In this document: piece after piece, positions 8,085 through 47,400 of the stretch | Position numbering within the stretch: position 1 is the first letter of the stretch | Layout of the letters: each line of letters begins with the position of its first letter | NCBI RefSeq assembly: GCF_014066305.1 | Contig: NW_023501105.1 | Span: 1-64,000, forward strand | DNA length: 64,000 bases | DNA from: Letharia columbiana | Lineage: Eukaryota; Ascomycota; Lecanoromycetes; Lecanorales; Parmeliaceae | Direction of reading: 5' to 3' | The notes under the pieces: model-generated | The model's input: the letters and a program-made list of their open reading frames with translations, nothing else | Told to the model about the DNA's origin: nothing | Database searches by the model: none | Program-made: the position numbers and the translations under genes

Positions 8085-11000
8085 TCACCAGGCGCTTCCG
8101 AGTGCCCTTTCCTTGCCAATAGCAAACCATGCCCCTACCCAGCGCTCAATGCACCCGGGCTGTATTTCTCCAGTAACCCTCATCTTCGAACTTGCCTCCT
8201 CGGTCTTCGGTGTCTCAAACTCCAGGTTTTTGCCTTCCTCAGCAAGCTTCTCATAGAACACCAGCAGCTTAGCCGCTGGGTTAACTTTGAGCATCGCCTC
8301 AATGTCTGCACTGCCGACCGCTTCAGCATCTGCGCGAACTTTCTGGAGCCAAGCTTGGAATGGCACTGTGTTGATCTTATTTGTTCTGGCATTTGAATGA
8401 CTGAGGGTGTTGACAATGGCTGGAAGGAGGGATTCCCAAGCTACAGGATGTGGATTCAACGGATGAAAGACACGTGCTTTGCCGGGTTCCTCAGGTTGTA
8501 GTAGCGTCGGAGCCTCCTGCAGTTCAGCATTGACAGTCAAATCCACAAGCACCTCGGCAAGAAGATCAATAGGAACCGAGTCGATCTTGTCTTGGCTTAC
8601 CCTAGCGAATCAGGCACAGCGCCGACATGAAGCGAGCTAAAAACGAGGCTAGGCAGCCACTTCGACTAGTTCCAGATGCCTTGGCCTTTTACTGGCCCTG
8701 CGATTTGCCCGACCCGCGCGATGCGAGGATCGATGGAGAGTCTCTTGGAGGCATAGTCGAGAAGGAGCTCCGCGAGATACTTACTTTCTCCGTATCCCAT
8801 GGGTGATGGGGCTTTGTTGTCTGAGATGATCTCCTCGCGGATCGAAGGGGTACTGCCGTGGTAGCCAAGGACGGAGCTTATGGAAGAGACGAAGAAGGCA
8901 ACTGGAAAGTGAGCTGCTGAGACAGCGAACTCGGAAAGCCGAGTTATTCCAAGAAGTTGCGGCCCGAACGCAGACAATGGGAGGTTGAGTTTGACGGGCC
9001 ACGCACTGTGGATGACCGCAGTGGCTTGAGTCAACAAAGCCCCGTACGTCTTACGCTCGAGGCCGAAATTCTGTTGCGACATGTCTGCAGTCAAGAAGGT
9101 CACTCGATTTGAGGGATAATCACTCGTGGTCCTGCGGATATTGTTTCGCTGTGATCGAGTAGATGAAGAATCCAACGCTCTATCTAGACGGTAGTCATGC
9201 GATACAGATGAGGAATTGGAGAGCACCTGGAGCAGATATAAACCCAATGCACCTGTTGACCCAGTCAAAATCACGGTATGGTTCTTGTTTCCCGCAATCC
9301 GAGCGGCACTTGACTTAGTTGGTTCTGTCTGCAAGTCGTTCACGAGGTTGTCGATCGAATTTTTGTGCTCCTGAAAGATCGCATCAATCACTTGCTGACG
9401 TGCCTGCTGATAAAAAATCTGTGATTGCCGACTCATGGCCGAGAGCTCTGATATTGCACTGGCGAGCGAAGATACTGTAGGGTTAGTGTACACTGCTGAC
9501 AGCAATCTCCGGATCGGCCAAAACTTGTTTCAGATCACGTGTGATGAGGAGTGCTTGCAGGGAGTGTATGCCTAGCAGGAACAAATTGTCTCCATCTCCG
9601 AATTGAGTCCAACCGGTGCGTTTAGTGATCGTCTCGCGTATGAATGAAGAGGTATTTTCAGGGCCGTGTACATCGATAAGCTGTTTGGCATCTGTTGAAG
9701 GGGGAACAGTGAATTTCTCCGCGTCAGCATATAAAGCTTGTAGCTCTTCTGCGTATAGGCTTAGAGTTGGCCTTCGTTGCACAGCGCCTTTCCCTGCTCT
9801 CAACATAGGCTTGTTGGTATTCACGAAAAGAATGTGTGATTTGTCTATCATAGCATAAGTAGGGCAATCTTTGTTTGCTCCTTGGATCGTTGGCCATATG
9901 CGCTGAAGGGTCTCTGCACGTTCGGCAGCTGAAAGAGCCTTCTCAGCCGCGAGTTCGATGAGGAGGGCAGCTTGCAACCTTTGAGCACCGGCGACTAACG
10001 CTGCGCGAACTTCAAGATGGCTGTTAATGCGTTCTTCCATAGGGGGTGGGATTGGTCTTCTCCCCTTTTAGGAAGATTATAATGTCGTCGGACCTGCCTT
10101 GATGTTTCCAAAGCCCGGGCTTGGATGGATGAGGTGAGAAGAGATCCCCGCTAGGGAATCTCTGGAGGTCAGGGTACAATTTGAAAACAGGTTGCCAGGA
10201 TTCGAACTTTGGATTTCTGACTATGCACAGTTCGTGTAGATCATCCGAATGGTGCTCGAACTCGACTCCAGTATCTGGATGGATAACCGCGTATTTCCAG
10301 TCTTCGCGTGGCCACGCACCCTCTGGTCGAATCGAGGGAGGAGATCCCATCTCTGAAGCCCCGTATATGTCCACTAGCTGCATCCTGCATGCAACAGGAT
10401 GACCAAAAGCTTGAGGTACATCTCCGCCAGCGTAGAGTAGGGTTTCTAGTCTTTCGGCGACGAAAGTCCAACATGGCACTGTCCTTGCCAATTTCTGCTA
10501 TAATAGTTGGAGGAACAACAGCAATGTCCGCCGTTGTGTGTTTGAGTGCGTCCACCATGACCTGTGCCGTCGGGATCGCTGCTGCAAGCGGATAGATTAT
10601 GGTTGTTCCATTGATAATCGCGTTGCATGAGGTTGTGCAGTGATTTGCAGCATGGAAAGGAGGCAGCATGAACAACAGTCTGTTTGCTTGGAAGAGTCTG
10701 TCCTGAGACTTGTATCCAGATGGCGGATCCAGATGTGTCATCTTAATGTATGCCGCCGCAAAGGCATGGGACCAGACGATCGGCTTCGGAAGACCAGTAG
10801 ATCCTGATTTATGGAAGGCAAGGAGAGGTTCATGGCTGGCTTCGTCGAAAATTTTTGTGTAGGGATAATGAGGATGTCTCTTGCTGATCAGTTCATCAAG
10901 GTTTGAAACTCCAGCGAGACGAAGCTTGTGAGCAGCCGTAAGCGCGGAGCGCATCGGTGGCTGCGGATTCGGTGCAAGCAAGACGGTACAGTCAAGAATG

Positions 11001-11420
11001 GTGAACAGCTTGATATGAGCTGGATGGCTATTGCGAAGGTTAAGTAAGGAGCATCTGATACTCAAACCAGGGTTAGCACCCCCTGCTATATCTTTCGCTT
11101 CAAGCTTCAACTAACCTTGTATCCGGCCTTGACAGCTCCTAATATTAGAACATTGTACCTCAGATCATTCGGACCTATGTAGGCCAAGGTGTCAAAACTC
11201 TTTGATCGACCAAGTGTCTTCTCCAACCACCACCATGCAGCACCGTTAACGGCATTGGTCAAGTCTTCATAGGTGATCTTTCTGTACCCTTCCTCATAAC
11301 CAGTGGTCGAAACAGGAAATTTCTGCGTACAAAGCTCGAGGTGTCCGCTCAGCTCTGGAATCGACGATGTTGTTCAAAATTTCTGGGAGCAGTCTCCCCA
11401 CCAATTTCGCGAGTAGTCAT
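8085..11420 (-). pseudogene. NRPS-like carboxylate reductase (A-T-R), multiply frameshifted
   Basis: The reading runs from an ATG at 11420 (MTTREIGGE). Adenylation motifs are present: FHKSGSTGLPKPIVWSH (A3 core) and VDIYGASEMG. The carrier site reads LGIHSLQAL, keeping Ser but with His in the usual Asp position. The thioester-reductase domain has the NAD(P) loop VILTGSTGALGLYLL and the YxxxK site (GYGESKYLAE). The family activates a carboxylic acid and reduces it to an aldehyde or alcohol. The frame is broken near 11396, 11316, 11060, 10461 (extra T before VAERLETLLYAGG), 10035 (C5 instead of C4 before MEERINSHL), 9495 (before VYTNPTVSSL) and 8598. There is an in-frame TAG at 8666-8668. One intron lies near 11050-11110 (GTTAGT). 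The protein text stays recognisable throughout, so the inactivation is recent. It sits beside HR-PKS and FSH-hydrolase remnants. Confidence 0.85.
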
Positions 11421-26106: not shown

Positions 26107-26937
26107 TCACCTTTTCCTCCGGTCGGTCACCTGCAACATCTTGATTCCAGCACGTCCGTCGTAACGTACACTTTGCATAGCCTGCTCTTCCATCGCTTGC
26201 GTAGATTGAGCGCAGGTGGAGCTGCAGAGACTATCGCTCAGCAACATGACATCTTCAGTGGCGAACGGCGCTCCGCGTTCTCGTGACCGAAATGTGGTAC
26301 AATTCTTGTACTGCGAGCAAAGCCTGAAGGTCTGTTCTGGCCGGACGGACCCATAAGAATATCGCCATTCTTGCGCACAGAGCCGAGCAAAGTATCTACT
26401 GAAGATCGCGACATTCCGTTTCCTTTCCTGCACGGAAAAGACAGCATTGAGCGTCGTTCCATGCCCCGTACTATCGTCGAATGCGGCGTATGTCGTATTC
26501 AGTTGTTCCAGAAGCGGCGAGGACCGCACGTAACGCCCACAGCACGGCGATGTGTGTAAAAGACTTGACGAAAAATGCCATATTCGGCTTCGATGCTGCC
26601 GCCTGGCTTGCAGTTGACGTCTATGAGGATATTTTAGTAGGGGTGCGTGTGGAAGTAGGCCAGAGCTTTGTGTATAAGGCCGCCACGGTCAAGATGTCGG
26701 CTAGGGAGGCCGTTGAGGGTGAGATGAGGCTAGAAGGTTGGGATGCTTGAAATGTGGGGAGCGGGCTTACGCCGACTGTGGGAAGAGCTGGTGGTAGGAA
26801 TTGATTGCGGCGGGCCGGTTGATAGAGCGGAAAAGAGTAGGCGTCAAGATCCGCTACGCTGATGCTTTTCAGCGAGTTGTCGCCCGTTGAAGTGGAAGTT
26901 TCTGTGCTTGCGGTGGTGCCATTGATTGGTGAGGAAG
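26107..26937 (-). pseudogene. S41-family peptidase remnant (ustP/phomP-like)
   Basis: Coding-like text in three minus frames lines up with fungal S41/CPAF-like peptidases. NSLKSISVADLDAYSFPLYQ is followed by LTVAAL, then after a shift HKALAYFHTHPY. A TAA stop lies at 26634-26636. Then come NILIDVNCKPGGSIEAEYG and FRQVF (the conserved 'LIDxxxNxGG' strand). After another shift near 26555 it reads SSPLLEQLNTTYAAFDD, then PFATEDVMLLSDSLCSSTCA with the serine-nucleophile region, and SVRYDGRAGIKMLQV. The N-terminal domain is not found upstream. S41 peptidases are standard members of ustiloxin and phomopsin (dikaritin) clusters, so its position beside a KEX2-repeat precursor and a UstYa gene is telling. 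The family call rests on motif recognition and should be confirmed. Confidence 0.6.
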
Positions 26938-27109
26938 TCCGACAGATTCCTCAATTCGGCCACACTGGCAGATGGCAGCTCTTAAAGACTACTGGTAGGA
27001 TGGCAATGGTCGCTGATTGAATGTCGGACTTTTTGGCTTTACACATCCTGGCAGCTGTAAAGGGGTTGATTATAGCCAAGGAGCCAAGCAAGTGGGTCAC
27101 GGGATTGCA

Positions 27110-27600
27110 AAGGACGTTGTCATTGCTGAAAAGCTGTACCAACGCAGCAAGCAAAAGCTCGTGAAGTCTTTGATCCTAGCTAAAAAGCCATACCAATGGC
27201 GCAAGCAAATAACCCGCAAAGGGGATAATCTTAGCTGAGAAGCCGAGCAAGTGGTGCACAAGGTGCAAAGGATCTTCTCCTAGCTAACAAGCCAATCAAG
27301 TGGTACACAGAGTGCAAAGGATCTTCTCCTAGCTAACAAGCCAATCAAGTGGTACACAGAGTGCAAAGGACATTCTCCTAGCTAACAAGCCAATCAAGTG
27401 GTGCACAGAATGCAAAGGATCTTCTCCTGGCTAACAAGCCATTCAAGTGGTGCACAGAATGCAAAGGGCATTCTCCTAGCTAATAAGCTAATCAAGTGGT
27501 GCATAGAGTGCAAAGGATCTTCTCCTAACTAATAAGCCTACCAAGTGATGCACAGAGTGCAAAGGACGTTGTCCTAGCTAAAAAGCCAAATGAGTGACGA
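27110..27600. repeat. 49-bp minisatellite, about 10 copies
   Basis: The GTGG of each unit recurs exactly every 49 bp at 27251, 27300, 27349, 27398, 27447 and 27496, then as GTGA at 27545 and 27594. Degenerate units precede these from about 27110. Each unit contains AAGCCAATCAAGTGG, TGCAAAGGAT and TCTCCTAGC. The period is not a multiple of three and both strands have stops, so it is non-coding. Confidence 0.92.
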
Positions 27601-28313
27601 ATAACCAATGGCTTTGAAGTCAGGGATTTCATCCTAGCAGTACTGCCAGATATGTAGAAGGATGGTGTGGATGATGGCAAAGAAAGGCTGAATCCAGAGA
27701 GGCAACCGTCATGCGTAAACACGGAGCTGCAATGGAGAGGATTTGTTTTGCTAAACTCGTATCAAGGTCCAGTAGCAATTCCCGTCCACCATCTCAAGAC
27801 AATTTGCAGTAGTGTGGTCGTGAGTCAAGACCGATCCCATTGAGCTTGTTGGGGCTCGGAGATCTGCTTCAGGTTCATGCCAAAGGATTCGGTGTAGGAG
27901 CGAAAGAGAAGCTGATGATATTGTCGTTGTGATCGATTGAATGACAGAGAGGATGAAAGAGGAAAAGAGAGCGTCATCATAGCGGCTAAGCTACAATTGG
28001 TAACGCTCGGAATGTTCCAAGCGCCCGAGGTAGAGTTCCCCTAGAGTTGGCATCGAATATCTGAAGAAGGTGCACTCGGAACCAATGCTGCTTTCGATAT
28101 CTAAGAAGAGAGGAGCTCTGCTACACTGAATGCTCGTTTGGGTCAAATGCCGAGTCTCTCTTACTATGAAATGAAAAGAGAAAGAGGTATTGGTATCACT
28201 TCTACCAACGCATCAAATCATGGAGCCACCGACCCCTCACAGGGATCCTCCCAACTTTACTGCTAGAGCGCTCTGTCCAAATGCCTTGCCTAGCCCTTTT
28301 CAACTCCACCACA
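27601..28313. other. intergenic, 3' side of the precursor gene
   Basis: No supported gene. It lies between the minisatellite and the KEX2-repeat precursor. Confidence 0.35.
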
Positions 28314-28639
28314 CTAGACTTCCTCGGTCTTCCCTCTCCAGGCTTCATCTGCATCGGCGCGTTTCTCAGTCCCCCCTCCCCAGGCTTCATCTGCATCGGC
28401 GCGTTTCTCAGTCCCCCCTCCCCAGGCATTGTCTACATCGGCGCGTTTCTCAGTCCCCCCTTCCCAGGCATTGTCTACATCAGTACGGACAGCCAGAGAG
28501 TTTGCTAGCAAGTATTGGTGAGTGATTCTTGTGTACCATGTTGCTCTAAAACGAGAAACACACCTTTTGGAAGCGGAGGTAGAGCTTGTGCACCAATCGC
28601 GAAGAGCGCCATAAGATAGAGAATCTTTTGTGGTTGCAT
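28314..28639 (-). CDS. KEX2-processed repeat precursor (candidate RiPP precursor, UstA-like)
   Basis: Exon 1 (28564-28639) and exon 2 (28314-28504) flank a 59-bp GTGTGT...TTGCTAG intron and encode 88 residues. The protein starts with a signal peptide (MQPQKILYLMALFAIGAQA) and a short pro-segment (LPPLPKANSLAVR). Four 14-residue repeats follow: TDVDNAWEGGTEKR-like, ADVDNAWGGGTEKR, ADADEAWGGGTEKR and ADADEAWRGKTEEV, then stop. The first three end in Lys-Arg, the KEX2 site; the last has lost it. This is the layout of dikaritin precursors (UstA, PhomA). The core would contain invariant Ala-Trp followed by a Gly-rich stretch. KR followed by acidic-Ala spacers before Trp also recalls alpha-pheromone precursors, but the paired Cys of ascomycete alpha-pheromones are absent. 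An intact UstYa-family gene 1.4 kb away, transcribed divergently, favours the RiPP reading. The pyrimidine-rich leader upstream of the ATG fits an active promoter. Confidence 0.8.
28328..28502. repeat. 42-bp tandem repeat within the precursor gene
   Basis: Four 42-bp units encode the KEX2-flanked 14-residue repeats. Neighbouring units are nearly identical in DNA, so the array has expanded or been homogenised recently. Confidence 0.9.
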
Positions 28640-30043
28640 GTTGATCGACTTTGACCGACGTTGCAAGAAAATCGTCGTAAGGGTTACTTTTGGGTGGTTG
28701 CTGTGATTTGGTTGCTTGGGGGATGAGTGAAAAGCTTGGTTTCGAGACTAGAGAGGGGGAATTGATAAGATATTTAAGCTTGACGAGGGCAGCTTCGAAA
28801 TGCGAGGCGCAGAGGTCACGAAGTTTAGTGCGAACTACGAATTGGACTAGTATCGACTGTGAATGACGGTCAGGCTGCAACACTTACCCGGACATTCGAT
28901 CGTCGCTGCGTTTCAATTGAAGAAGATAAATTTATTATTACAGGTCTCTTTCGAAAGCTGCTGTCAATCGTGGCTACCCGATAAGCTGTACCATTCAATG
29001 TCTCAACAGCTCGCATAAATGAAAGCCGTCGTACTTGCATGAAGAATTGTCGTCTTGCTTCCATGAGAGTCCCGTGCTCGTTCTGGAGAGATCGGCTTGT
29101 TCGGTTGATCGGATGCATGAGCTGCGGTCTAGGTCATCTGATCAGCTACAGGAGCGTTACCAATTTCATCATCTGCTTCGATGAAATCGTGCTCGCTTGT
29201 ATGGGCCGTTTTGGTCATATCATCATCTCTTTGCAGTCTTTGAAATCAAAGCGAGGAAGACATGCAAAACGAGAAGTGGATATGCAGGTCGAAAAGAGAA
29301 GAAGAGTATCTTCCAGACGCCGTTCCACTGGGTGCTTCGTAGGCGTTCAGAGCTTCCTTTCTTGGTAGACAACGCGCTGATCCATCAATACAGATGCTCC
29401 GACCATGTCTCTGCTGTAGATACCCATCTTTCATTGACAGACAAACTCAACGTCACATTGCAATGTTTGAAACTGGCGCAAACCGGACATACAGGACGAA
29501 AACCAGAAGTGGAGTATCTGCCGGTAGACAGTGAGTATAATTGGACGCCGTTGCACTGGGTGCTTCGTATGGAGAACTTTGAAGTTACTGCCTTGAAGCG
29601 AGACCTGCGAGAAGATGAAGAAGGTTCGCGGAACAGGTTGAGATTCTCCAGTCGCACGAAGCAGGGTTTGAATTTTGAATTTGGCGGTTTGCGTCTCACC
29701 TCAACCCTCAATCACGCAATTCTTTGAACAGGACTTGTCCAGTCCTTCGTTATGTTGCATTCTCGAGCATTTCCGACACAAGAAAAGTCTCTCAAACATT
29801 GCAAGAAATACCTGATGCGTAAAGCTCGCTACTTGACGTCATTAATAGCTTCTATAGTCTTGTGTAGCCTTGTATAGCCTGAGACTGCGGAACATCTACT
29901 GATGAATGATATTTTGTTCAAGGCATCTCATTTAGACCACACCGACAGACTCTTGTTATACTGTCAAATAATCATTTCCCGCTGGGCCTCCGTTGATAGG
30001 ACAGCTTTCTAAACCCGCTTCTCCCTGCTGAAAATCTTTGCGG
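28640..30043. other. divergent intergenic region with a duplicated segment
   Basis: Lies between the precursor and the UstYa gene. No gene can be supported. Two similar stretches (29263-29350 and 29487-29578) share GACGCCGTT(C/G)CACTGGGTGC and GAGAAGTGGA/CAGAAGTGGA blocks. Short frames here (for example TPLHWVLR on the plus strand) faintly recall ankyrin text but are not sufficient. Confidence 0.4.
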
Positions 30044-31286
30044 ATGGCTCATTACACAATTTTAGCAGAGGACTCTGAGAGCTCCAGCAAGCAATATGAC
30101 GATCGTGACAGCAGTGTCTCCGACAATGATCGCTTTCTAGAGAAGGACCTACCACTTCGGCCTCAACAGCCTTTCTATCGCAGACATTTCAAATCAACCG
30201 TCTTCCACTCTGTACTCTGTACTTTCAACCTCTTGTTCTGCCTTGCGATCTGGCAATGGCCCAGAAACCACTGTCCTTTCGGAGTGTATGGACCAAGCCT
30301 TGTCTACAGTAAGCTCATTTCTCAAGAGAGGGCCAGTACCTAACGATATCTTGCATAGCACCAGCACTAGACGCGATAGCATACGAGGCACAAACGTGGG
30401 ATCCCACGAACATCTTCTTCAGGAACGGTTCAGCCGACCCGAACCGGCTGCACAAGGAATTTGGGCCACCTTCGCCCGAGTCAGATTTTGCATGGGCAGA
30501 GCTCATCCAATGTGAGAATTGCTGCACCAATCTCTGGATGTGAGCATAGGTACTAATTGAGAAATATCAGACCAAAACATTCGTCTCACAAAAAAGGAGC
30601 TTGGAGAGTATCGCGACAAACCAGGTCTTGTTGAACTTGCCGATGGGTCGGGGTACTATGCTACTTTATCAGTCTATCACTCCCTACACTGTCAGTATAC
30701 AACAGAAGTACAGCGATGTTCGACTGACAGCCCTAGGTGTCAAACGCCTGCATCACCTCATGTACTTCGACCACTACTATCCCAACAAAACCGATCAAGA
30801 GTCGATGTTGATCAAGCATCACGGCCGTAAGTCCAGACTAGTCGTCTTGCAAACACCAAGCTGAGACAAAACAGAGCATTGCCTCAACATTTTACTCCAG
30901 ACTGTCCAGTGCAACGCGGACCTAAGCATTCTCCCAATGCAGTGGGGCGCAACGTATGCTCCGTATTCCCCACCATGCATGACACTTCTAACTCCAATGA
31001 TAGGACACGAGTCCCAATAGGCTTAGACGAAGGCCACCACCAATGCGTCCAATGGGACAAGATAGACAACTGGATGAAGGAGCGTAGTCTGGATGTTTTT
31101 GCCCCTGGCGTAATCGTGCATCCAATACTCGGTAAGTATCATGAATAATCCCTTTGTCATCTTGTCTTGCGTTCGCTCCTATTTACTGTTCTTCTCTCAC
31201 AACCATCAGGCGAAGCATATCCCGATGGCAAAGGAAACGATATCGGAGTCGCGCTCGATAGGCTGCTGAGCGAGCAGGAGGATTAA
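30044..31286 (+). CDS. UstYa-family (DUF3328) oxidative cyclisation protein
   Basis: Seven exons (30044-30308, 30359-30511, 30571-30690, 30737-30826, 30875-30953, 31004-31131, 31210-31286) join in frame to 303 residues. All introns are GT-AG; intron 3 uses GTCAGT and a CTGAC branch. The N-terminal 50 residues are cytosolic and Ser/Asp-rich. One membrane helix spans about residues 52-72 (FHSVLCTFNLLFCLAIWQW). Both family motifs are complete: HxxHC at 176-180 (YHSLHC, split by intron 3) and HxxHC at 208-212 (HHGQHC, split by intron 4). Upstream text ELGEYRDKPGLVELADGSGY is also typical. UstYa/Yb proteins catalyse oxidative cross-linking or halogenation/oxidation of core peptides in the secretory pathway. 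The C-terminal extension after VQWDKIDNWMKERSLD is about 45 residues. No second UstY gene is visible. Confidence 0.88.
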
Positions 31287-31564: not shown

Positions 31565-31566
31565 TA

Positions 31567-31857
31567 CAGAGGTCTGCACCGAAAGTCCTGCACCCGCCAA
31601 GACTCTTGCGCTCAGACTTCGGATAACGCCCCACCTAAAGGGTTACCTGGACAATACGTCTGGAGTTCTTCGGAATCGCACCTAGCCCTAGCCAGGTTTC
31701 GGGGCTTACTACCCCTATCAAGGCTAAAAGAAGTACCTTAAATCCCATCATGCGCTGTGAGAAGATATTTTTAGGCTTCCCCTCTACAGGGCCGCTTTCC
31801 GAAAGTAGGGTTAGGGCTGCACTAGTGCGGGTGCAGGACTTTCGGTGCAGACCTCTG
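31567..31857. mobile_element. MITE of Tc1/mariner type
   Basis: A perfect 33-bp inverted repeat (31565-31597 and 31827-31859) includes a TA dinucleotide at each outer end. The termini begin CAGAGGTCTGCACCGAAAG, flanked by TA, as expected for Tc1/mariner target duplication. The 291-bp element has no transposase ORF. Related, more mutated pieces occur at about 60590-60880 and 63660-63920. Confidence 0.8.
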
Positions 31858-31951
31858 TAGTCTGGAAAGAATTGCACAAAAAGGGGAAGTGAGATATGCA
31901 ATCTCGGGTGGCATTAGCAAAAACATCATTTAGCGCAACATACAAACCCAC

Positions 31952-32100
31952 AAAGAACAAGGATGACCAGGTATCGTGTGGGTAGAAGAGGATGTAGATT
32001 CTATGGAGGCAGGATCCCGAGGATTCCCTAAGGATCTAGCCAAGCAAACTATACTATATAAAGCTAGAAAGAATAACCCCGTAGAAAGCACCTTTCAACT
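31952..32100. repeat. left arm of a 149-bp direct repeat bounding the AT-rich block
   Basis: Matches 59990-60138 in the same orientation. The middle ~80 bp (for example GGAGGCAGGATCCCGAGG and CAAGCAAACTATACTATAT) is identical. The differences I found are all transitions in both directions, as RIP would leave. Probably part of the terminal repeat of the gypsy-type elements inside the block. Confidence 0.8.
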
Positions 32101-35100
32101 ACTACGGAATAAACAAAATAGAGCTCTAGCGATTATAAAGCTATATATAAATATAAATAAAAGCTATTTCTATAATAAATAAAGCTATAGTATAGTATAG
32201 CACTTAAAAAAAAATAAAATAAAACTACTATTTCTAAAGCCTTTCGTAAGCGTATATACTTCTAAGAAAATATAAACTCTTAGAAAAGTATAGACTTTCG
32301 AGAAAGTATAGATTTTAAAGTCTTCTATAAGAAGTATTAACCTCTAGAAAAGCTTCTAGCGACGGCGTTAAGTAGTTTACTATTAAGGTATTAAGAAAGT
32401 AATAGAATTTAGAAGATAGTCTATATAAGTAACGAAGTTCTTAAAATAATCTCCGTAAAATATATATCTAATTTTTTAGTTATTAAGTTATATAAGTGTG
32501 AAGAATCTTTTATAGAATTTATTATATTTACTTATTCGAAATAAATCTCTTTAACGAGCTTCTAATTTTTCTATATTCTTCTAATATAATATAATTAGAT
32601 CGCTAATATAATATATAATTTACTTAATTTTCTTATTATATTAAAAAGCTATATTCTTCTTCTACTAATTTAAATATTATCTAATTATATTATAAAGATT
32701 TATTTAATAAATAAGATATTATTATATAATTTAAATATAGCTAGTAAGATTCTTTAACTTCGCGACTTAAGTAGAAATATTATATTTAAAAAGTATACGT
32801 AAGGTAGATATACTAGTAGAAGCTTCTTATAGTAGTCCGAAGAGGATACTAATAGAAGAGATTTTTAAGTATTTAATAACTCGTATATTAATTAAACTTC
32901 TAATCTTTAATAGACGCTGATCTTATTTTAATTTAGTATAAAGGGAATCCTTATAAAGTACTACTTTTAGTAGTTTATTATAGATTTCGATTATTCTTAT
33001 ACTCTTAAAAGTATTAGAAGGGCTATATATAACGATAATATCTTTAAATCTCAAGAATTCTTTTAATTTATTATTAAAGAAATATTAATCGCGATTAAGA
33101 TAATAGATATAAGACTTTCTATATATAGTAAAAAATAACTTAAAATATTAGATAATATTCTTTATATTAATAGAGATAGTAATAAAGAAAATTATAAATT
33201 TACTTATATAGTAGATTTTTATAAATATAAAAGTAGATTCTACTTTAGTAATTTTAAGTAAATTTATAAAATCTATTTTTATAAGCTAGAAAGAATATAT
33301 AATTTTAATAGAATATAAAGATTAAGATCTAATAGTAGGTCTATATTTAGTATACTTAAGATATCTAATAATATATTTCTTAATATCTTATACTTTTTTA
33401 AGATTTAGTAGCTACGTAGTCTTACTAGAATATTAATCTTAATCTAATATTCGCTTTCGTTATAAACTTTCTAAAGTATAGTAAGTACTTTTCCTTTCGG
33501 CATATAAGATAAGTATACGCCTTTTTGAAAGATTTATAGAATATATTATATTACTCTAATATTTAAAAGCTTTTCGAAGTAGCGTAATAGTAGAGATCGA
33601 AGATTCTACGATAAGAAATTTATAGATTTCGCCAAATTAGATACTACTGCGAAAGGCTTTAATCTAAATCTTAACGTTCTTATCGATCTTATTAAAGACT
33701 TTTATAAATAATTTTATAGCTTCTATAGTAGAAATAGCTTTTAGCGAGAAAGAAGAAATATTATATAGCGTGCCCCTATTAATAACTTTAAGTTATTCCG
33801 ATTTAATGAGTACTACTAGAAATAAATCGAATTTACTCTTATTATTCTTCTAGATTTATTTCGAGTTATAATTCTCTAATTTCTATTATACTTATATAAC
33901 TATAATATTCTCTAAGTATTTAATATCGAATAAGATTCTCGATAAGTTATTAATAGCTTTATTTCGAGGTCTAGATATATACTAAATAATAAGATTTAAG
34001 CGATAAAATTTATTAATCTAATACTTATAGATTCCCTTATAAAGATCTAAGTCGAGAAAGTGCGTAAGAGGCTTATAATTAGTGTGTATTATAGTAGACT
34101 AATACGAGTATTTATATAAGTAGTTATACTTTTTATAAAATATAATAATAGCGTAGAGTTCTCGCTTATAAGTAGAATACTTCTTTTAAGTAAAATTAAA
34201 GATAAATGAATTATATAATATAGATATTTTCTTATTCTTTTCTATTATAATAGATTTTTAAGATTATAAAGCTTTTAATAGAATAGCTTCTTATAGTGTA
34301 AGAGTATAATACTACGTAATAGTATATCTAGCTGTAAAATTGGAAGTATTAGTATATATATAAACGATTTAACTTAGATTAATATCGTATATACTTATTT
34401 TTATAATATATTTAATATATAGAGATCTCGAAGAATAGCTATTCTACTTAAGTTTATCGCTATTTTATCTTTCTTATAAATTTAGAAAAGAGATCTCACG
34501 ATTTCTACGAAGTTTTTTACTTATCGACGCGTAATATTAATAGTTTTTAAGAAATCTTAAACTTTCGATTAATTTAAAGAAATAGATTACTTAACTACTT
34601 TAATAATCTATTTTTTAAAAATATAAATATATTTTTTAATAATATAAGTTATATTAAAGGCCTTAATTAATAATATAAATAGTTATAGTTTCTTAAAGAA
34701 TAAGAGTAACTTAGCTTACTTAATTCTAGAAAAGAAATAATACTATAGAAAAGAAAATAAATCCTCGAAGTTATAAAAGCTATTAAAGAAATTATTTATA
34801 TAGAATATAAAAGATAGTGGAATCTTAGAATTCGATGAATATAGTAAAGAAGGTTTTAAAGAAATAGAATTAAATATTTTATAAGCTAGCTTCGTTATAA
34901 TAAAGTCTATAGATTATAATCTCTATTATATTCTTATAGATTATATCTTAATTAATATCTAAAATAATAAAAGTAAAGTAGTATTTATCATTAGAATATA
35001 GAGATATTATAAGATATATATACTTTAAATTAGTTAAGAATAAGTATCTATAATGTAGATTAGATAGATAATCGTAAACTTTTAAACTTAGCTCGAGATA

Positions 35101-37865
35101 AGCTTCTAAAAAAAGCTTTATAATTTATAAATAATTAAAAGTTATTTGAGACTCATTAGTAGATTTTAAATTCTCGACTTTATCTACTATAATAGCTTGT
35201 ATATTTTATAAAAATAGATATTTATTTACGCAGATTTAGTAAGTTTATAGATATTATCTTCGAGACTATTCTAAATAAACTTTTTAAATATTACTTTATA
35301 TAAGAAGGCTAGCGCTTTTAAGATTCTGAGAAAGTAGACTTTATATTAGATATAATACGTATTTAATATATAATAAGATTCTATATAAGATAGATCTCTT
35401 AGATCTTTTTTATTAAGATATTTATATTAGTATAGTAATTATAATATTTATAGTCTCTACTCTACTATAATAATAAGTAAATTAAGAATTAAATCTAATT
35501 CTAGCTTATTAATCTATTTTTCAAATTCTAATAATAAGAAATACTATAAAAGACTTTAACGAATTATTCTTCTAGTAGAAAATACTTATTTAAGAGATAT
35601 CTATAAAAATAATAATACTAGCGTTTTCAAAGTACTAAAGACTTTGATAGACTAATTTAAAAAGCTTATAATAATTACTTACTTTAATAAAGAAAAAGAA
35701 TTAAAGAATTTTAAAGATAATAATAGAGGTATTTAAGAGGCTTAAATTCTTAAAATAAGCTTCTATGAGCTTTAGTAATTTAATATTCTTACTTAAGATA
35801 AACTTAATTTACTAAAAATTCTAACGCTTAATCTCTTTAATATCTAATAAATTATCTTTAGAATTAAAAGAACTATTAGATTCTAAAAAATTAATTTTCT
35901 TAACAAAAGTCTTTAGCTATATTCTTATTTAATAGCTTTCGAAGTTTTTATAGCGGACTTGAAATATATTAACAAATTATAATCTTTGTAGAAAACTATT
36001 TTCGAATCCACGATTCTTCGAACTTTCTTATCTATTAATTTATCTCTTAGAAAAATAATAGAAAGATAAATTGAAATAAAAGTATCTATAGAATAAAACT
36101 ATAGAATTTTAAGAATTAAATTAAACTATTTAGATCTTTCTAATTTTATAATAAATATAACTTTCGAAGCTATAAAGTATCGAATATTTCTCTAGATTTC
36201 TTTTATATTAATTATAAGTTATATTTAATACTCTAATATAATATTATAATAATTCGCTATATATATAAAAAGATCTTTAAATTTAATCTTCGAAAATAGA
36301 TAAAGATATAAACTTAAAAGGTGTACTAGTTTAGAAGATATTATATTTATATCAAAACCTTAATTCGTCTAAGTATAAGATTTCTCGAGGCTAACGTTAA
36401 ATCTATTCAATTTCTTTATAATAATAAAAATATAAAACATCTTATCCACACCCATAAGAGAGCTAAGAAAGCGTATATACTTCTCAGCTTTTATAGTAGA
36501 AGTATTAATATAGAATACGAATATTAACGTAGTAGGGTTTCTTAAAGTCTATTAAGAAGGCTGAGATATAGGTACTTATAAGGTATAGATATAGAAGAAA
36601 ATGCCGATATAGGTTAATAGGCTTATAAATACCCTAAAGGTAGTATAGATATTTATAGAATTTATTAGATAAAAGTAGGCTAAAAGCTAATTAAAGAAGC
36701 TTACGTAGTATCCGCAGTAAGCTTTAAAATTCATTTCTTAGAAACCCGAATATAAAGGCGCTTTAACTTTTTATATATAGTAAGTAATTATACCATAAGA
36801 TCTATTATACTTATATCGACTTTGATACTCTTAAATATATATCGAATCGATATAGAAGAATTATATTCTAATTTATTAAATAGACCTACTAAAGACTGAG
36901 ATTCTACTTTCTTATTAACTCGCTTCTTATCCTTATATTTAGAATACTCTTCTTTCGAAGTAGCCTAGAATAGATATAGCTAATTCTAAAAAGAAGGTCC
37001 TTAATCTATAGCTATCGAAGATTACTACGAATCTACTTAGATAGAAACTTATAACGAGTAGAAAGAAGTATTAAAATTTAGACTAGCATTAAACTACTTT
37101 TACTAATACTAAGATATCTAAAATTATTATAATATAAATTGCTATAATTAAATAGATACTAACTGAGGTCTCTTAGGCTACTTTTCTTATTACCGCTAAA
37201 ACGCCAATACCGACACTAGTGTTAATGCTAATACTTCTTCTACGTAAGCTCGTTTATTAGATTCTAACCCTTTATTAAAAAAAGCTTTAATAATTTTTAT
37301 ATTAGCGAAGCGAGATTAATTTAGCCCCGCTATTTCAAACTATACTAAATTAGAATAAAAAGAAATATATAAATTTATAGAGCTTAAAGGCGTTACTTGA
37401 CCCAATCTAGTATAAGAAGAAGAAGAAGAAACTATGAAAGATTTCGGCGAAGGGGTAGTTCTATAGGGTCTAGAAGATTTATTAAACTTCTTAAATCCAA
37501 CGATAGCAAAGTTTAACTATAGGTTATTATCGAAAATAAGTATTTTTAAATACGACTATTTCTAAGTAGATAGTAAAGTATTCTTATAAAGAGAAGAGAT
37601 ATAACTTTTAATATCACACTTAATATATAGCTAACCGTCTTTCTTATAAGACTAGTAGATAGTATTATTAATATAAGAGTTCTTCGAGATAATTCGATTA
37701 GGTATATCTCTTAAGATAGATTAATAATTACGAAAGCGATTATCAGCTATAAGATTTGAGGGTCCGCTTCTATTAGCGTTTCCTTTATTAGAATTCTAAA
37801 CTAAGATCGAAATCGGAGTAGAAGTCAAAACTTTATATAAAGAACGACGATACTTAGGGTACTAG
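32101..37865 (-). mobile_element. Ty3/gypsy relic 1, RIP-degraded
   Basis: This AT-rich segment has almost no CA/TG dinucleotides. Minus-strand conceptual text with many stops still shows RNase H (KYSTYKRELYAII then NYKPLTHFLDLDL, at about 33950-34260) and gag-like text (KAPLYSGF...CGYYVSFFN) at about 36640-36790. RT should lie between. Gag lies at the high-coordinate end, so the element is on the minus strand. The 36640-37850 stretch recurs at about 57390-58620. It breaks off near 37850-37868 at a palindrome-rich insert. Confidence 0.75.
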
Positions 37866-37867
37866 TC

Positions 37868-38060
37868 GGAAAGGTATGGTATATCCTATGGGATATTCCA
37901 TATCAAGTGATATCATATCGTATCCGGGTATGATATGGGTAGGGTCGGATACCATTCCATTTTTCTGGTATGGGTTCGGGATCTTGGCGGGATATTTCAC
38001 GGTATGGTATATCTGTGATATTATATCATGAAATGATATATATATAAGATATCCCGGTTG
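37868..38060. mobile_element. GGTATGG-rich palindromic insert, MITE/hAT-like
   Basis: A stretch of GGTATGGTATATCC, GATATCATATCG and TACCATTCCATT words with several short inverted copies. It keeps many TG and CA dinucleotides, unlike its surroundings, so it has seen less RIP. The element class is a guess. Confidence 0.4.
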
Positions 38061-41000
38061 GGATTTCTATATTTATAGAATAATCCGACTGAGATATATA
38101 GAATATATTTATTCTTCTTTATTAAGAGAGAGGAAATATAAAGAGTAATCTAATATAGCTATTTATCTTCTTATTAATAGTAATAATTAGAATAATAATT
38201 AGAACTATAAGCGTCTCTATTCTTCTTCTTAAAATTATAATATAAAAGAATATTCTAAATTTTAAATCTTTAAATATTATAAGAATAAAATTCTATAATT
38301 ATCTTTATTTATATATTCGCCTTAACGCGTTAAATAAGCTTAATAAACTTTATATTTATTCTTCTCTTAAACCCTCCGCCACTCTTCTATTCTACTCTAT
38401 CGCGATTCTTTTAAATATTTTAAATTTATCTTTATTTAATTAAACTTATTAACTATTTATAGATAAATTCGCTTCTTAAATTATTTTAGACCTCTTTTTC
38501 GAGATTAAATCTATTATTATTAATTCTCTCTAACTATAAGCTTATTAATTATTTCTCTATATATTATAGAGTATTAATAATATATCTTAATAAATTTATA
38601 AATATTAGATTTATCGAAGTATTTTTTATAAGCTCGTTATCTTCGCTAATATAATTATTACGATTATTAATTAAATTTTTATATAAAGTACTATTAGCTC
38701 TTTTAATCTAATTTAATATATTAAGATTTTCTTTAAGATTAAGTTTAGTTTATTTAAGCTCGTTTTCTTAATACTTTATATAAAGAACTATTATTAGAGC
38801 ACGAAATATCGTTAATAAATAATACTTTTAAGTATTATAATATCTTTTAGTTATTAAGAAATATCGCTTATATGTAATAGCCTTCGCGAGAGAATAAAGA
38901 ATATTACGAGTTATTCGAGTAACTATAATATATTTAAGCTTTAATTTCTTTTATTATTCTAAAATTAAAAGATTTATTAGATTATTAAAAGAAGCTTTAT
39001 AAAGATTAGAGATAAGATTATAACTAAAATAATAATTAGAAAACTTATCGTTTTATTTATATTATTAAAATTAATTATATTTATTCTTATTATCTAAATT
39101 CTTAATCTCGAATTTTATCGCTTAATTAAGCGTATTTTTATTCGATTAATTTATTCGCTTAACTCTTTATAATTAACTACTTATATTAATATTTTAATAA
39201 TTTTAAAATATCCTTCTAAGCACTTTTTAGTAGATCTTCGCCTATAACTTCTTCTTAATATTAACCTTCTAATTCGATTCCTTTAACTTTATATTATTAT
39301 AATTTAAATATAAAAGCGTAACTTATTTATATAGATAGTCTAAATTTAATTAAGTTCGATTATAATAGATAGCTAATTTCTCGTAAACCGCCTTAAAAGC
39401 TTTAAGAAGTTCTTTTTTTTAAGAAATTCTCTTTCTTCTTAATTTTCTAAGTTTTTTATCTATATAATTAAATAGATAATTATAAATATTAAAGATATAG
39501 TAAATTATAGCCTTCTTTTCTCTACTTATTAACTTTATAAATTTATAAAAAGATTTAATAAGCTAAATTAAATATTAAATTTATTAGAAATTAATCGAAA
39601 ATTATTTAGACGCCTAGACTATAATTTTTATTTATAATTATTTTTTATTACTTAATCTTAAATAGATAGTTAATCTATTCTTTAAGAAGTATATAATATT
39701 AATATAAAGAAGTAGAGCGCGGATTAATATCTAATAAGTTAAATCTTAGCGAGTTTTAATATTCTAAAAGAGTTTAAAAAGGCGTCTTTAATGATATTAC
39801 TTCTCTTTAAAAGATTAATATTTATTTAATATTAAAACGTTTTTATTTTAAAGTCGTTTAATTTATAATATAAAAAAGACTTCTTTACGCTAGTCGCTAG
39901 TATTAATATATATAATAATTTTTTAAATCTTAATATAATTAATAATATAATAATTAGAATAATAATAAGAAATATTATATTTTTATTAGAGTTATTAATA
40001 GATTAATTATATTTATTTAAACTTAATTCTTATCTTCTTTATTATCTTAGCTTCTCTAAAATTTCTTATTTATTAAAATAATTTTAATATTATTTAGAAG
40101 TTCTTTTAAAGCTAGTTAAATAATATACGCTATATAAAAAATATATTATAAATAATTTAGAAACTTAAATTCTTTAATATTAAGTGAGTTATTTATTATA
40201 GAAATAGAAAGATAAGTAATTAAATTATTAAAGAGTATATTATTATTACTAATATTATTAGTTATAAATCTAAATATATAAAATTAAATCTTATATTTTA
40301 TAAGAATTAGATTAATAATACTTATAAGTTTCTAGCTAATATATTTATCTTCAATATATTCGAAGTTTATAAAAATCTTATACTATTACTAGTTAATATT
40401 AATAAAAAAGATTAAGATTATTATAAATAATTAATGATTATAAGATAACTAATAATTTAGAGTTAAAGAGACTTTAATATTATTAACTAATAAATTCTTT
40501 AATAATTCTATCTTTAGCTCTATAGCTTTTCTTATTAATTAATTCTTTATAATAAATATCGATTTTAATTATATATTAAAGTCGAGATAGCGTAAGAGTT
40601 ATAATATTTTAAAATTATTAGCGATTATAAATAAAATATTAATATTTATAATTTAGCGATAAAATTATTTTAAGAAATCTTCGCGTATAAGCTTTCGATC
40701 TTCTAATATTATAAGAGAATCTTAATATTATCTTTTCTAGAGTAAATAGTAAATTAGATATTCTATTTATTATTTTATTTATTAATAATCTATATCATCT
40801 AATTTAGAAATATATTTAATTTTTATAATTATCGACTAAATTCGTTTATTATAAACTACTTAAATTAGATTTCTTAATATATCTTTTAAACTTAATATAT
40901 ATTATTATATCGCTTATTTCGTAATTTATAAATAAATAAATTAGAATCTTATCGTAGTAATAATAAATAATATATAGCTCCCCGGAATTGATAAGCGTAT

Positions 41001-43696
41001 ATTCATTAAATTATATTTATTTCTAGAATTTTCTAATTTCTAAATCTTAATAAATAGATTAATAATCGCTATTAGATTTAAACTAATTCTATATAACTTA
41101 TATTATCTTTATTTATTATTATATTTATTATTTTTTATTATTAATATTAAAAAGAAAGTAAGATTTATTATTATCTTTATATCGAAATATATTTATTAAT
41201 ATTTTATATTAAATATTATTAATTAAGAAAGTTAAGTCTACGCTAAATAAAGATTTAATTAATATCTTAAAATTAAGATATTTAAAGAGAAATTAAAAGA
41301 GATATATAAACGAATAAAATATTAGAAATAAAACGAAATTAATATTTAATATATAAATTCTATCTTCTCGCTATAATAGAAATTTATATTATTTTAATAA
41401 CTTATATCGCTTTAATAATATATCGCTATATTATTCTCGATATTTTAAATTAAAGATTAACTCTTTCTAATTAATATTATAATTAGTAGTTATATATTTA
41501 AAAGTATATAATAATATTAATATAGAATTAATATTTAATTTTATTAATTTGAAACTCTAATTAGTCTAGCTATTAACGCTTCTCTACTTAATATAATATA
41601 TACTTTATTTACTTTAATATTAATACTTATTTATTATTATACTATTTTAATTATTAGAATTAGAGATTATATTTTTTTAATTAATATTCTAATTATTAGC
41701 TATATTAATAAGAGCGTATATTAATATCTTAAAATTATTAAATTTATTTTATTAGATATCGATATAGAATTAAAATCTAATTTAAGCGCTTTAATAATTT
41801 AATTAATTAAACTAGTTATTATCTAAATCTTTTATATATAGAAATTAAATCTTTTATTACGCTAAGATTATTTTTAAATATCGATATCTTTTTTATTAAT
41901 ATGACTTTTTTTATTTAAGTAATATTATAATATCTTTTATTTAGACGTTAAAATATTAGAGTATTACATTTTTCGCTTTTAATTAAATAATATCGTTTTT
42001 AAGTCGATATCTTTAGTCTTATAAAAATAATAATTAATTCGTTATAGGCGAAGGTGAAAAAGAAATAATATCTTTTTCTATCTTTATAATAGAAGAAGAG
42101 AAGAAAGTAAGTGAATTAATTATAAGTTATACGCGGTTTAATATCTAAGAATAGTGAATTAATAAAGTTATAATATTAGAATAAAGAGTTTTTCTTATAA
42201 TTGATAAATATAAAATTAAATAGAAATTAATTAGATTAATAAGATTATCTTTAATAGATATATCGCGTATATAAAGAATATCGAAATATATGAAATACGT
42301 ATAAAATATAAAAGAAGACGTATATATATAATTATAGATATTTAAAGTATATTTGAAATATAGAAAAAAGCGTTTATATATAGCTCTACGATATATATTA
42401 ATAAAAAGAAGTTAACCTCTTTTTCTAGTTAGCTTTCTAATTAATATTTAAATTTAATTTATCTTTAAATAGTATTTTATTCTAATAAGATTTTAGTTAT
42501 ATAATATTAGTTAGCTTAATAACGAATATTTAATATTATTCTTTTTTAATTTACTCTCTTCTTTTTTAAAAATTCTTTTTATTATTATAATAATTATATT
42601 ATAATACGCTTATTTATTACGATATTATCTATATTTAAAGAAAATAAAATTATTTTCTCTATACTCTATAGTTAAATTAGATTAATAATATTATTTCTAT
42701 AAAGTAAATATACGCTTAATAACGCTATATCTCTTAATACGATAATTAATTATAATATTAATTATAATTCGTTAATATATAATATTATTACTTATTAAAG
42801 CTATTAACTCGATAATCGCGAAAACTTAAAAAATTCTTAATAATTTATTAATTATTAATCTAAGTTTATTTAAATTATCGAAGTAAAGTAAAAATAAGAC
42901 TTCGCGAAGGCGAAGATTAGGAGATTATACGCGAAGTTTGAAAAGTATAACTATAAATAAGAAAAATACGTAGTTATATTAATTATATATATTTAAATTA
43001 AATAGTAAATTAATTATACGTATTAATTATATTATTATTAATTAGACTTTAAAGCTTATATATTAAAGGAAATCCGCGGATTATAAAAATTAACGAATTT
43101 AATTATTTTTTAAATTGTATTTACTTAAGTAGTAAAGGAGATCTTAATTTATATAGCTCTAAAATCGATTGATTCGCTTCGAATTTAATTCTTTATATTA
43201 TATATACTTTAAGAAATTATAAAGATAAAATTAGCGAGCGATTTTAATAATATAATTTACTCTCTAATAATTATAAATAAAGAAAATTATTAACTAATAT
43301 CTAGCGGTTTAATTATATATATTTTATATAAAAAGAATTATTTTATAATTAAAAGATATATAGCTTTTTAGATAATTACGATAAGATATAAGTTTATAAG
43401 TAATAATATAGTATTATTAAAGTCTAGACGTAGTTTTTATAAAAAGAAAATATATAATAAATAAAAGGAAAACTATTCTAAGTTAAAGATAAGATATTCT
43501 AATTATTATTCTATTTATTATATTTAATTAATAATATTTAGCTATTATACTTAATCTAGTAACTTTATATATTTTATATTTATAGAATAAAACTTTTTAA
43601 ATCGATTTAAATATAGATATACGCTTATAAAAATACTACTACTTTAATAAAAGAGGCTTTTCATCTTAAAATCTATATTAAATTGAAGGTTATATC

Positions 43697-43972
43697 CCTA
43701 TATCCGATAGTTTTAATTCTTATAGTTATTATTAGTATCGCGATTAAATTTATATAGTAATAGTATATCTTTTTTATTAGCGAGTATCTCTACGTTCGAT
43801 AGCTTTAGTTTTTATAGTTATTATTAATATCGCGATCAAATTTATATAATAATAGTACGCCTTTCTTATTAGCGGGTATCCCTATATTTAATAGCTTTAG
43901 TTCTTATAATTATTATTAATATCGCGATTAAATTCGTATAGTAATAGTACGTCTTTTTTATTAGCGAGTATA
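43697..43972. repeat. about 92-bp tandem repeat, three copies
   Basis: Three consecutive units share GATAG(T/C)TTTA, TTATTATTA, ATCGCGAT and TTATTAGCG(A/G)GTAT. Copies differ mostly by transitions. Confidence 0.75.
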
Positions 43973-44469
43973 TTAATAATCGTAAATAGCTGAAATATGA
44001 TAAAAAATAGTAGATAATCTTTAGTAATATTCGGTCTTAAATCTATAGCTTCTTTATCTTATCTAGAAGTAAAGATATTTATATTTAGAATTTAAAGTAA
44101 GTAAATTCTAATATATAGTTAATAAATATTTAGATATAAATTTTTTAATACTTCTCGCTAAGCGTTTAACGCTTAAAAGAAGAATATTAATCTTTAATTA
44201 CGCTTATATAAATCTTTTAAAAAAAACTATATATTAATAGAAAGTCTTAGCTTATATTAATTATAATTATAAAGATAATTATAATTATAATTTTAAATAT
44301 AATTAGATATATAAGTTATAAGACTTATTATTAGCTAGTAAATAAAAGATTAGATTCTATTAATTATTCTATTTAGTATCTTATTTATTATAAGAATATA
44401 GAGTTATCTTTTAAAAGCGAAACTTTAAAGACGATAGTTAAATAATATAATATATATATAATATAAAAT

Positions 44470-47400
44470 CTTACGAACTACGCGCTAAAAGGGAAGCTTC
44501 GAAATTATAAAATTAATTAAAATTTAATAGTAATAAATCTCGCGTAAAGCTTAAGTTATAGCTCGTATTAGTAATATATAATAAGAATAATAATAGTTAA
44601 AAAAATATACTATCTAGTTTTTATTAATATTTTAATATTATTAAAATAGAGATAATATTTATTAAAGCGGCGGTGATATCTATTAAAGTGGCGGCGGTAT
44701 TTATTAAAGTAATAATAATATCTAATAAACGCTTTATTATAACGCTTTTAAATAGATTATTATCTCGCGTAATTTAAAATAATATTAGCTTTTTCGAAGA
44801 GCTATTAATAATAAATTAAATATATATAAGTTAAGCTCTTTACGCGATTTATCTACGTATTAATTTAAAGTTATTAAAAGATAAAAAATAAATATATAAC
44901 TTAATATCTACGTTATACTTTAGATATTATTATAATAATATTAAATTATTTAAATAAAAATTTAATATATAAAGAAGATAGTCTTATAAGAAGAAGGGTT
45001 AATATAAAAAAGAAAGTCTTAGAGAAGAGGAAAAGCTTATATATCTATCGCGTATATTAAATATTTAGATTACTTTATATCGTTTAGCTTAATTTAAGTA
45101 TTAATAAATAATACGCTTTCTCTTTAATTTTAAAGATTTAAGTTTAAGTAAATTATATTTATTAAGCGTTATTATCTAATATAATCTTATCTACTTTTAT
45201 AATATTTATAATTATTATTATAGCTCGTATAGATTAAAAGATAAGATATTTAAAAGAGCGAGTTAATAAATAATTATTCTTATCTAATTTAATTAAAATA
45301 AAACTATTATAACTTATTAAAATTTTCGCGTATTTTATTTTTATTTTCTTTTCTTTATATAAATAATTATTCTTTTAATTTAAATTCTATAATTAAAATA
45401 ATATATAATATATACTCTTTATTTCTAACTTCGATACTTACTAGAATTAATATATTTTTTAATAAAATAAATATTAATTAAAATTAAGTATAGTTTAATA
45501 TTTATAGATATTTATATAAGCCCTTTAATTTCTTTATATATATCTATTAATTTATCTTTTTATAGCGATTAAAGTAGAAGATATTAAGTCTAATAATTTA
45601 TTATAATAAATATTAAATATTAATAATAATAATGATATTAAAAAGTCTTAATATAGATTAGTTAAATAGCGATTATATTTTTAATTAAAATAAAAAGCGA
45701 AGAATAAGTTTAATAAAAATAAAAATATTAAGAGATCGCGATAGCGAATAAATATATTTATATTTAAGAAGAAATTAATTAAGAAAGTAAAGAAAGTCGA
45801 TATCTTAGTTATTAATTATACTATAATTTATAATAAGCGTAAAATTAGATATATTAATATATCGTAATTAAAATAGAAGTAAGCTTTTAAGAAAATTAGA
45901 TAAAATATAATAGATAAGTAATAAATAATTTCTAATTCTAATTATTATTCTAGTAGACTTATATTTTAATAATATTATATAAAAAAAATACGCGAGCGTA
46001 ATTTAAAGAAAGTCTAGAGTTTCGCTTTTTATATAAATTATTATATATATAAATAAAGATAAAAGCTCGAATTAGAAGAAAATAAATAATATCGAAGCTA
46101 AATAAGATATAAGTATTAAAAATAATTTTATTATACGCGCTAATAATTAAGTAAACTTTATCTTTTAAGCTACTCGAAAGCGCGATATAGAATTTAATAA
46201 TAAGCTCTATTATAGTTTAAATATAAAAGTATTAACGCGTTAATTAATAAGTATTAAGCTATTATAGAAATCTTAAAATATTAAATATAATTATATTTAA
46301 AAGATAAAATTATAAATCTTTATTAATATATAATTAATTTAATATATAGTAATAAAAAGTTTATTATAAAAGCTACGCTATCTAAGTTAATACTTTAATC
46401 TTAATTATTACTCTTACTATTATATAAGTAATACGAAGTTATCTTTTATTTAAGTATATCTAATTCTTAATTTTAATTATTATTATAAATATCGTTAATT
46501 TATTCTAGAATTATTAAATCTACTTTTATATACTTTTTATATCTTATCTTTTTTTTAATTAGATAGCGATTAAACTCTAAATTAAAATAAATACTTAGAA
46601 GAGAAAAGTTTATAAGTACTTAATTATATAATTTTATTTCTCTTACGCTTTTTATAATTACTAAGATAATTAATAATATATAATTATATCTTATAATTAT
46701 ATTTATAATAATTAATTAATTTAATAGCTAAATTATATAAAGATAAATATATTTTTATTTTTAATTTAAACGACTTAGCTAAGATAATTATAAGATTTAA
46801 ATTCTTTTTCTATAATATAACTCGCTTTTTATATATTATATAAAGATAAATATCTATTTAAATAGAAATTATTAGAGCTAATTATAAAGCGTAATAATAA
46901 AAGATTTACTCTTAAACTAACGAATTAGAAAGACTTTTATTATCTTATATAATATTTTAAAAGTAAATCTTTAAATATAATAGCGCTTTAATAAATTTTA
47001 ATTAAGTATAATCTAACGAATTAAACGCTAAAAGAGAAGCTTCGAGATTATAAGATTAATTAATTTTTAATAGCGATAAATCTCGCGTAAAGTTTAAACT
47101 ATAGCTCGCGTTAGTTATATATAATAAGTATAATAATAATTAGAAGAATATACTATTTAGTTTTTATTAACGTCTTAATATTATTAAAGTAAAGACGATA
47201 TCTATTAAAGTAAAGATAATATTTATTAAAGCGTAATAGCGATAGCGATTAAAGCGATAATAATATTTAATAAAGACTTTATTTTAACGCTATATTTAGC
47301 ACTCTAGAATAGTATTAGCTTTTTTTAAAGAGCTATTAATAATAGATTAAGTGTATATAAATTAAGCTCTTCGCGTGATTTATCTATATATTAGCTTAAA

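Follow-up and report, generated by a model that had tools for sequence, protein, structure and literature searches.

What peptide pathway is encoded where a short repeat-bearing precursor gene, a UstYa-family gene and fragments of an S41 peptidase gene lie side by side in the wolf-lichen fungus Letharia columbiana? The question is raised by positions 26107-31286 of a 64,000-nucleotide stretch (hereafter the window; positions 1 to 64,000 of contig NW_023501105.1, assembly GCF_014066305.1, here C70), which a preliminary description, made from the letters alone, had read as a compact dikaritin-type locus for a ribosomally synthesized and post-translationally modified peptide (RiPP). The genome examined comprises 52.2 Mb in 161 contigs. 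The locus is probably a dikaritin-type RiPP locus that has lost its S41 peptidase and now runs on two dedicated genes. This reading draws on an intact UstYa gene with both HxxHC motifs and on precursor features kept in Letharia lupina; on an S41 remnant found, among 22 stretches searched, beside this precursor only, in a genome that has one S41 gene; and on KEX2-repeat frames in five of 16 other UstYa neighbourhoods, as compared with none of six other loci and none of 80 shuffled loci.

The precursor, the UstYa gene and the S41 remnant

The features of the locus are, in window coordinates:
28564..28639, minus strand: precursor exon 1, with the signal-like leader MQPQKILYLMALFAIGAQA and the start of the propeptide
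28505..28563, minus strand: precursor intron, 59 nt, GT-AG
28314..28504, minus strand: precursor exon 2, which includes the stop codon and, at 28484-28317, the four 14-residue units
28640..30043, no strand: intergenic stretch separating the precursor from the UstYa gene
30044..31286, plus strand: UstYa-family gene, seven exons, 303 amino acids, PF11807
30309-30358, 30512-30570, 30691-30736, 30827-30874, 30954-31003 and 31132-31209, plus strand: UstYa introns, GT-AG, 46-78 nt
26131..26289, minus strand: clear piece of the S41 remnant, around an SDSLCSSTC motif, matching the genome's S41 gene
26559..26630, minus strand: weak collinear piece of the S41 remnant, in another frame than the clear piece

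The spliced precursor (28639-28314, minus strand) has 88 amino acids, arranged as a signal-like stretch that by eye ends in AQA, a short propeptide and four 14-residue units, TDVDNAWEGGTEKR, ADVDNAWGGGTEKR, ADADEAWGGGTEKR and ADADEAWRGKTEEV. Tandem Repeats Finder (TRF) places a 42-bp tandem repeat at 28332-28469, inside exon 2. The length, the secreted-type leader and the four repeats given in the preliminary description hold, but the Lys-Arg sites number three, not four: Lys-Arg ends three of the units, the last terminates in TEEV, and the first is preceded by Val-Arg. A dikaritin precursor gene lies near a UstYa gene and encodes a signal peptide, KEX2 sites and repeated cores, and all of these occur here (the signal peptide as judged by eye). 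Dikaritin cores also have Tyr (or Phe) as the site of cross-linking. All four units of the window precursor carry Trp, and none contains Tyr or Phe.

Relatives of the precursor are few. A single-sequence search returned four proteins at E up to 1, and a profile search five at E up to 10. P0001 is 97% identical to the window precursor over 83% of it (P0003 is this gene read without splicing), and P0002 (Letharia lupina HO133_005815) is 84% identical over 78%; P0001 and P0002 each have three units. The exon junction recurs in both, as gene predictions rather than RNA, and the L. lupina precursor keeps the leader, the splice and the Lys-Arg sites. The leader is also common to P0001, P0004 and P0015, of which the last two retain the TEKR flank but carry AAYQGTYQG-type, Tyr-rich cores. 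A leader and flank that stay the same while the core changes are expected of a modified core lying between recognition parts. Further, a decayed relative with Trp units occurs on contig C21 (locus L016, C21:483000-492999, at 4822-5168, plus strand); its start codon is absent, it has an internal stop, and the Pfam PF11807 search of the genome found no UstYa match anywhere on that contig.

The UstYa gene is divergent from the precursor gene, with 1,404 bp between them. Its product agrees with L. columbiana HO173_011308 at every one of 303 residues (100% identity) and matches PF11807 at E 1.1e-48 (166.5 bits, profile positions 8-220 of 220). All seven exons are open, and the two HxxHC motifs that characterize the UstYa/DUF3328 proteins of dikaritins are present as HSLHC (176-180) and HGQHC (208-212). 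An alignment of nine rows, which excludes the truncated P0009, shows no variation in the H and C of either motif; with P0009 included (11 rows), the second motif stands at 90% or more. The intact, divergent gene with both motifs that had been described from the letters is borne out by these results. The DUF3328 search had been set beforehand as a possible refutation of the RiPP reading, and its clear match favours that reading. Ten proteins were found with the UstYa protein at E up to 0.001, the nearest named relatives outside Letharia being from Icmadophila ericetorum (48% over 92%), Aspergillus tanneri (60% over 59%) and A. bertholletiae (45% over 84%). No solved structure matches it by sequence at E up to 1, and a structure prediction from nine sequences was discarded at a mean predicted local distance difference test score (pLDDT) of 42.4. 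In the intergenic stretch, a weak ankyrin-like fragment (29197-29727, plus strand) falls below the Pfam cut-offs and contains two copies of a 26-bp piece, at 29316 and 29544.

Judging from its sequence, the S41 gene beside the precursor is broken. The S41 content of the genome is a single long frame on contig C130, which accounts for the one PF03572 match and the one PF23658 match. Searched against the genome, a 193-residue frame at 26110-26688 matches only itself and the C130 frame (41% over 49 residues, E 0.0027). For the clear piece the best local match to C130 is 47% over 36 residues, equalled by none of 1000 residue shuffles; the weak piece was matched as well by 45 of 1000. The two pieces are collinear with the C130 gene, at a spacing of about 114 versus 135 residues. 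The C130 protein was also compared, at E up to 5, with 22 stretches (the 16 other UstYa neighbourhoods, four control regions, L016 and the window), and its single match was window 26289-26131, beside the precursor.

The eroded S41 gene of the preliminary description therefore stands at 26131-26289 and weakly at 26559-26630, while about 26640-26937 has no supporting S41 match. The Pfam check proposed for the minus strand at 26107-26937 went the other way: no model matches any of seven pieces at E up to 10, so the remnant is assigned through its match to the S41 gene on C130. Likewise, no solved structure matches the S41 piece by sequence at E up to 10. An S41 peptidase is part of the dikaritin scheme, though not obligatory in all members, and the window holds a broken remnant of one. 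Between this remnant and the precursor gene lies a 49-bp minisatellite of 7.3 copies (27232-27589).

Other UstYa neighbourhoods and published systems

Is the pairing of precursor and UstYa gene peculiar to the window? PF11807 has at least 35 exon-level matches in the genome, which group into 17 neighbourhoods including the window. The 16 others were each scanned over 10 kb for KEX2 repeats, defined as similar neighbouring segments between Lys/Arg-Arg sites. The frames flagged in five of them, three clean and two degenerate, are:
C17 near 63.5 kb, convergent with UstYa: QDSDAVYDHDHGERLDSDAIYDHA type, weak splice model joining leader and repeats
C32 near 545.6 kb, divergent from UstYa: SDPAKDYIYPFKTYPEEE, frame-broken
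C33 near 531.7 kb, divergent from UstYa: ENPDGDLYEYKA, weak splice model
C47 near 109.4 kb, divergent from UstYa: QDADAAYGVYE, degenerate
C4 near 1130.9 kb, same strand as UstYa: ADDEPGAPSIWSVE, good leader-repeat splice model

The divergent arrangement at C32, C33 and C47 is that of the window. The C33 frame is a long array of PDGDLYEYK units (L024, C33:524000-533999, at 7613-7969, plus strand), and the C4 frame bears Trp (ADDEPGAPSIWSVEKR type; L029, C4:1128000-1137999, at 2815-2972, minus strand). L019 has an array of DAVYDHDHGE units at 3515-3840. No S41 match was found in the 10 kb around any of the five flagged neighbourhoods.

As controls, we scanned six other loci (L016, L017 and L035-L038), 80 dinucleotide-shuffled 10-kb loci and the window as eight 8-kb chunks. 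None of the six and none of the 80 was flagged. Among the window chunks, that with the locus was flagged and also one of the seven others, on a tandem CCTG array at 54.7 kb that is not precursor-like. The scan also flags antisense frames of the arrays of the window and L024, and leaves the decayed C21 relative unflagged; it thus misses decayed cases.

Other gene families distinguish some of these neighbourhoods. On C62, tyrosinase matches and a Methyltransf_2 match surround two UstYa places, and the KEX2-repeat scan finds no repeat frame there. On C4, a single UstYa gene has acetyltransferase matches at distances of about 3, 13 and 24 kb, and the repeat frame sits between it and one such match; C65 has one acetyltransferase match 7.6 kb from its UstYa gene. 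Contig C70 has no match to PF00264 (tyrosinase), PF00891 (Methyltransf_2) or PF00583 (acetyltransferase); other methyltransferase families were not searched.

The clusters for ustiloxin and phomopsin contain S41 peptidases. The window resembles them in its secreted KEX2-repeat precursor and UstYa-family enzyme, with S41 present only as a remnant, and differs in its Trp rather than Tyr core and in having no tyrosinase or Methyltransf_2 match on C70. An older five-gene definition of dikaritin clusters, since relaxed, included a tyrosinase and a methyltransferase, neither of which C70 has by PF00264 and PF00891. Also, the window has one UstYa gene, as against the two or five counted in the ustiloxin and phomopsin clusters (PMC7329392). 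The window also resembles the locus for asperipin-2a of Aspergillus flavus, which is described as having a single UstYa-type gene, a KEX2-repeat precursor and no peptidase gene. Asperipin, whose locus also has a reductase and a transporter, has Tyr cores with two Tyr linkages, whereas the window has a single Trp.

KEX2-processed repeat protein (KEP) genes were surveyed by Umemura (2020), whose main text mentions neither lichens nor Lecanoromycetes (PMC7329392). In the figures given there, DUF3328 genes occur near 1758 of 7878 KEP genes, most often as the immediate neighbour (PMC7329392). The window holds such a pair, and the abundant type P-3 of that survey also has Trp (PMC7329392). The locus is a genuine example of the KEX2-repeat/DUF3328 pairs common in Ascomycota, and is not singular, given this abundance and the five similar neighbourhoods in its own genome.

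In the main text of a study of 111 lichen genomes, which does not name Letharia, two Parmeliaceae clans with UstY are reported as lacking repeated cores (Pasinato and Singh, 2025; PMC12048977). Like these clans, R1 and R2, the window comes from Lecanoromycetes and has a UstY-type gene carrying two HxxHC motifs; its repeated cores set it apart from the published account of both (PMC12048977). Membership in Clan R1 (tyrosinase, O-methyltransferase and two UstY genes) was rejected, as C70 has no PF00264 or PF00891 match and has one UstYa gene, and membership in Clan R2 (copies of a GNAT-type acetyltransferase flanking one UstY) was rejected on the absence of a PF00583 match from C70 (PMC12048977). 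By gene content, Clan R1 as described resembles C62, and Clan R2 resembles C4 (PMC12048977). If C4 is Clan R2, as its gene content may indicate, then R2 would have a repeat precursor in Letharia.

No publication on this locus was found in the open-licence literature, most subscription journals lying outside that coverage. The earlier wording "perhaps previously undescribed" is fair for the locus itself; the kind to which it belongs is common.

A possible product and the rival explanations

How would two genes yield a product? As inferred from what has been described of known dikaritins, the precursor would enter the secretory pathway, and KEX2, a general protease of the Golgi, would cut it after Lys-Arg. 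The acidic peptides so freed would be about 12 residues long and contain a single Trp, and UstYa would oxidize the core at or near Trp by cross-linking, hydroxylation or desaturation. Trimming may formerly have fallen to the local S41 peptidase and may now be dispensable or performed by other peptidases. By analogy, the product would be an oxidized Trp peptide. A more specific proposal is possible but tentative: the window may belong to a UstYa-linked lichen precursor family in which leader and flanks are constant and only the core switches, being of a single-Trp or a Tyr-x-x-x-Tyr type. Here one UstYa would act on Trp with no dedicated peptidase, giving a Trp-oxidized or Trp-cross-linked peptide outside the Tyr/Phe cross-links of characterized dikaritins, which in published accounts involve Tyr or, in victorin, Phe.

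Several observations weigh against the dikaritin-type reading. Between units of the window precursor, amino-acid-changing codon differences number 2 to 7 per pair and silent ones 0 to 2, so there is no sign of purifying selection among units. In the published survey, Tyr occurs in 65.6% of the repeats of KEPs neighbouring DUF3328 versus 38.2% elsewhere, and Trp in 20.5% of KEPs beside DUF3328 versus 24.5% elsewhere; the residue that accompanies DUF3328 is thus Tyr rather than Trp, and this argues against Trp as a usual target (PMC7329392). Also, repeat frames in six of 17 UstYa neighbourhoods versus one of 13 other stretches is a comparison with a small control set, not strong alone.

Trp is in fact equally frequent in the 6120 of 7878 KEP genes without a DUF3328 neighbour (PMC7329392), as would suit linear, unmodified secreted peptides of a signalling type, with the adjoining UstYa serving something else; the relic precursor on C21, a contig without UstYa, fits this as well. 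We consider it unlikely, because the S41 remnant, UstYa and the precursor are clustered in a genome with hardly any S41 genes, and because the pairing recurs in five other UstYa neighbourhoods. Usual alpha-type pheromones contain Cys. The window precursor has none, which tells against such peptides, and an alpha-pheromone reading was set aside on this ground.

The S41 erosion could instead mark a relic locus, whose pathway stopped with the loss of the peptidase and whose precursor and UstYa remain intact because decay is recent. The nearby miniature inverted-repeat transposable element (MITE)-like sequence, which begins 279 bases past the UstYa stop, the AT-rich block from 32 kb, the decayed C21 relative and the degenerate repeats at C32 and C47 would agree with such decay. 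Nevertheless, all seven UstYa exons keep open frames and the motifs are conserved, and L. lupina retains the frame of the precursor as well as its splice and sites; functional clusters that lack a peptidase gene have been reported, with asperipin-2a as an example. An end to the pathway is accordingly improbable. That a repeat frame merely lies by chance near an unrelated UstYa gene gains something from the scan's flagging of non-precursor arrays and antisense frames, but the homologues of the precursor in L. lupina and among other sequences, together with the clean shuffled loci, make this highly improbable.

Candidate peptides can now be named, e.g. ADVDNAWGGGTE and ADADEAWGGGTE, and searched for in lichen thalli. 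The lichen setting, the switching-core precursor family and the companion loci in one genome make the chemistry directly testable, and with Trp alone in its core the locus would also test UstYa chemistry beyond Tyr and Phe. In addition, the usual RiPP mining rule, as stated in the lichen study, requires a peptidase (PMC12048977); a UstYa locus with a repeat precursor but no intact peptidase gene, together with the five further candidates, suggests that peptidase-based mining misses such loci.

The rest of the window

The MITE-like element (31565-31859) has perfect 33-bp terminal inverted repeats and at least 41 genome matches over most of its length, the window's included, the others being 85-98% identical. 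The AT-rich block spans 32000-51000 (13-30% G+C), has a look resembling repeat-induced point mutation (RIP), and is followed by more such sequence at 53-54 and 56-60 kb. Pfam searches covered 30 of the 58 frames of at least 100 amino acids in the window, a scope in which intron-split cluster genes may have been missed. At 8666-11110, on the minus strand, lies a non-ribosomal peptide synthetase (NRPS)-like reductase gene with AMP-binding, AMP-binding_C_3, weak PP-binding and NAD_binding_4 (male sterility) matches.

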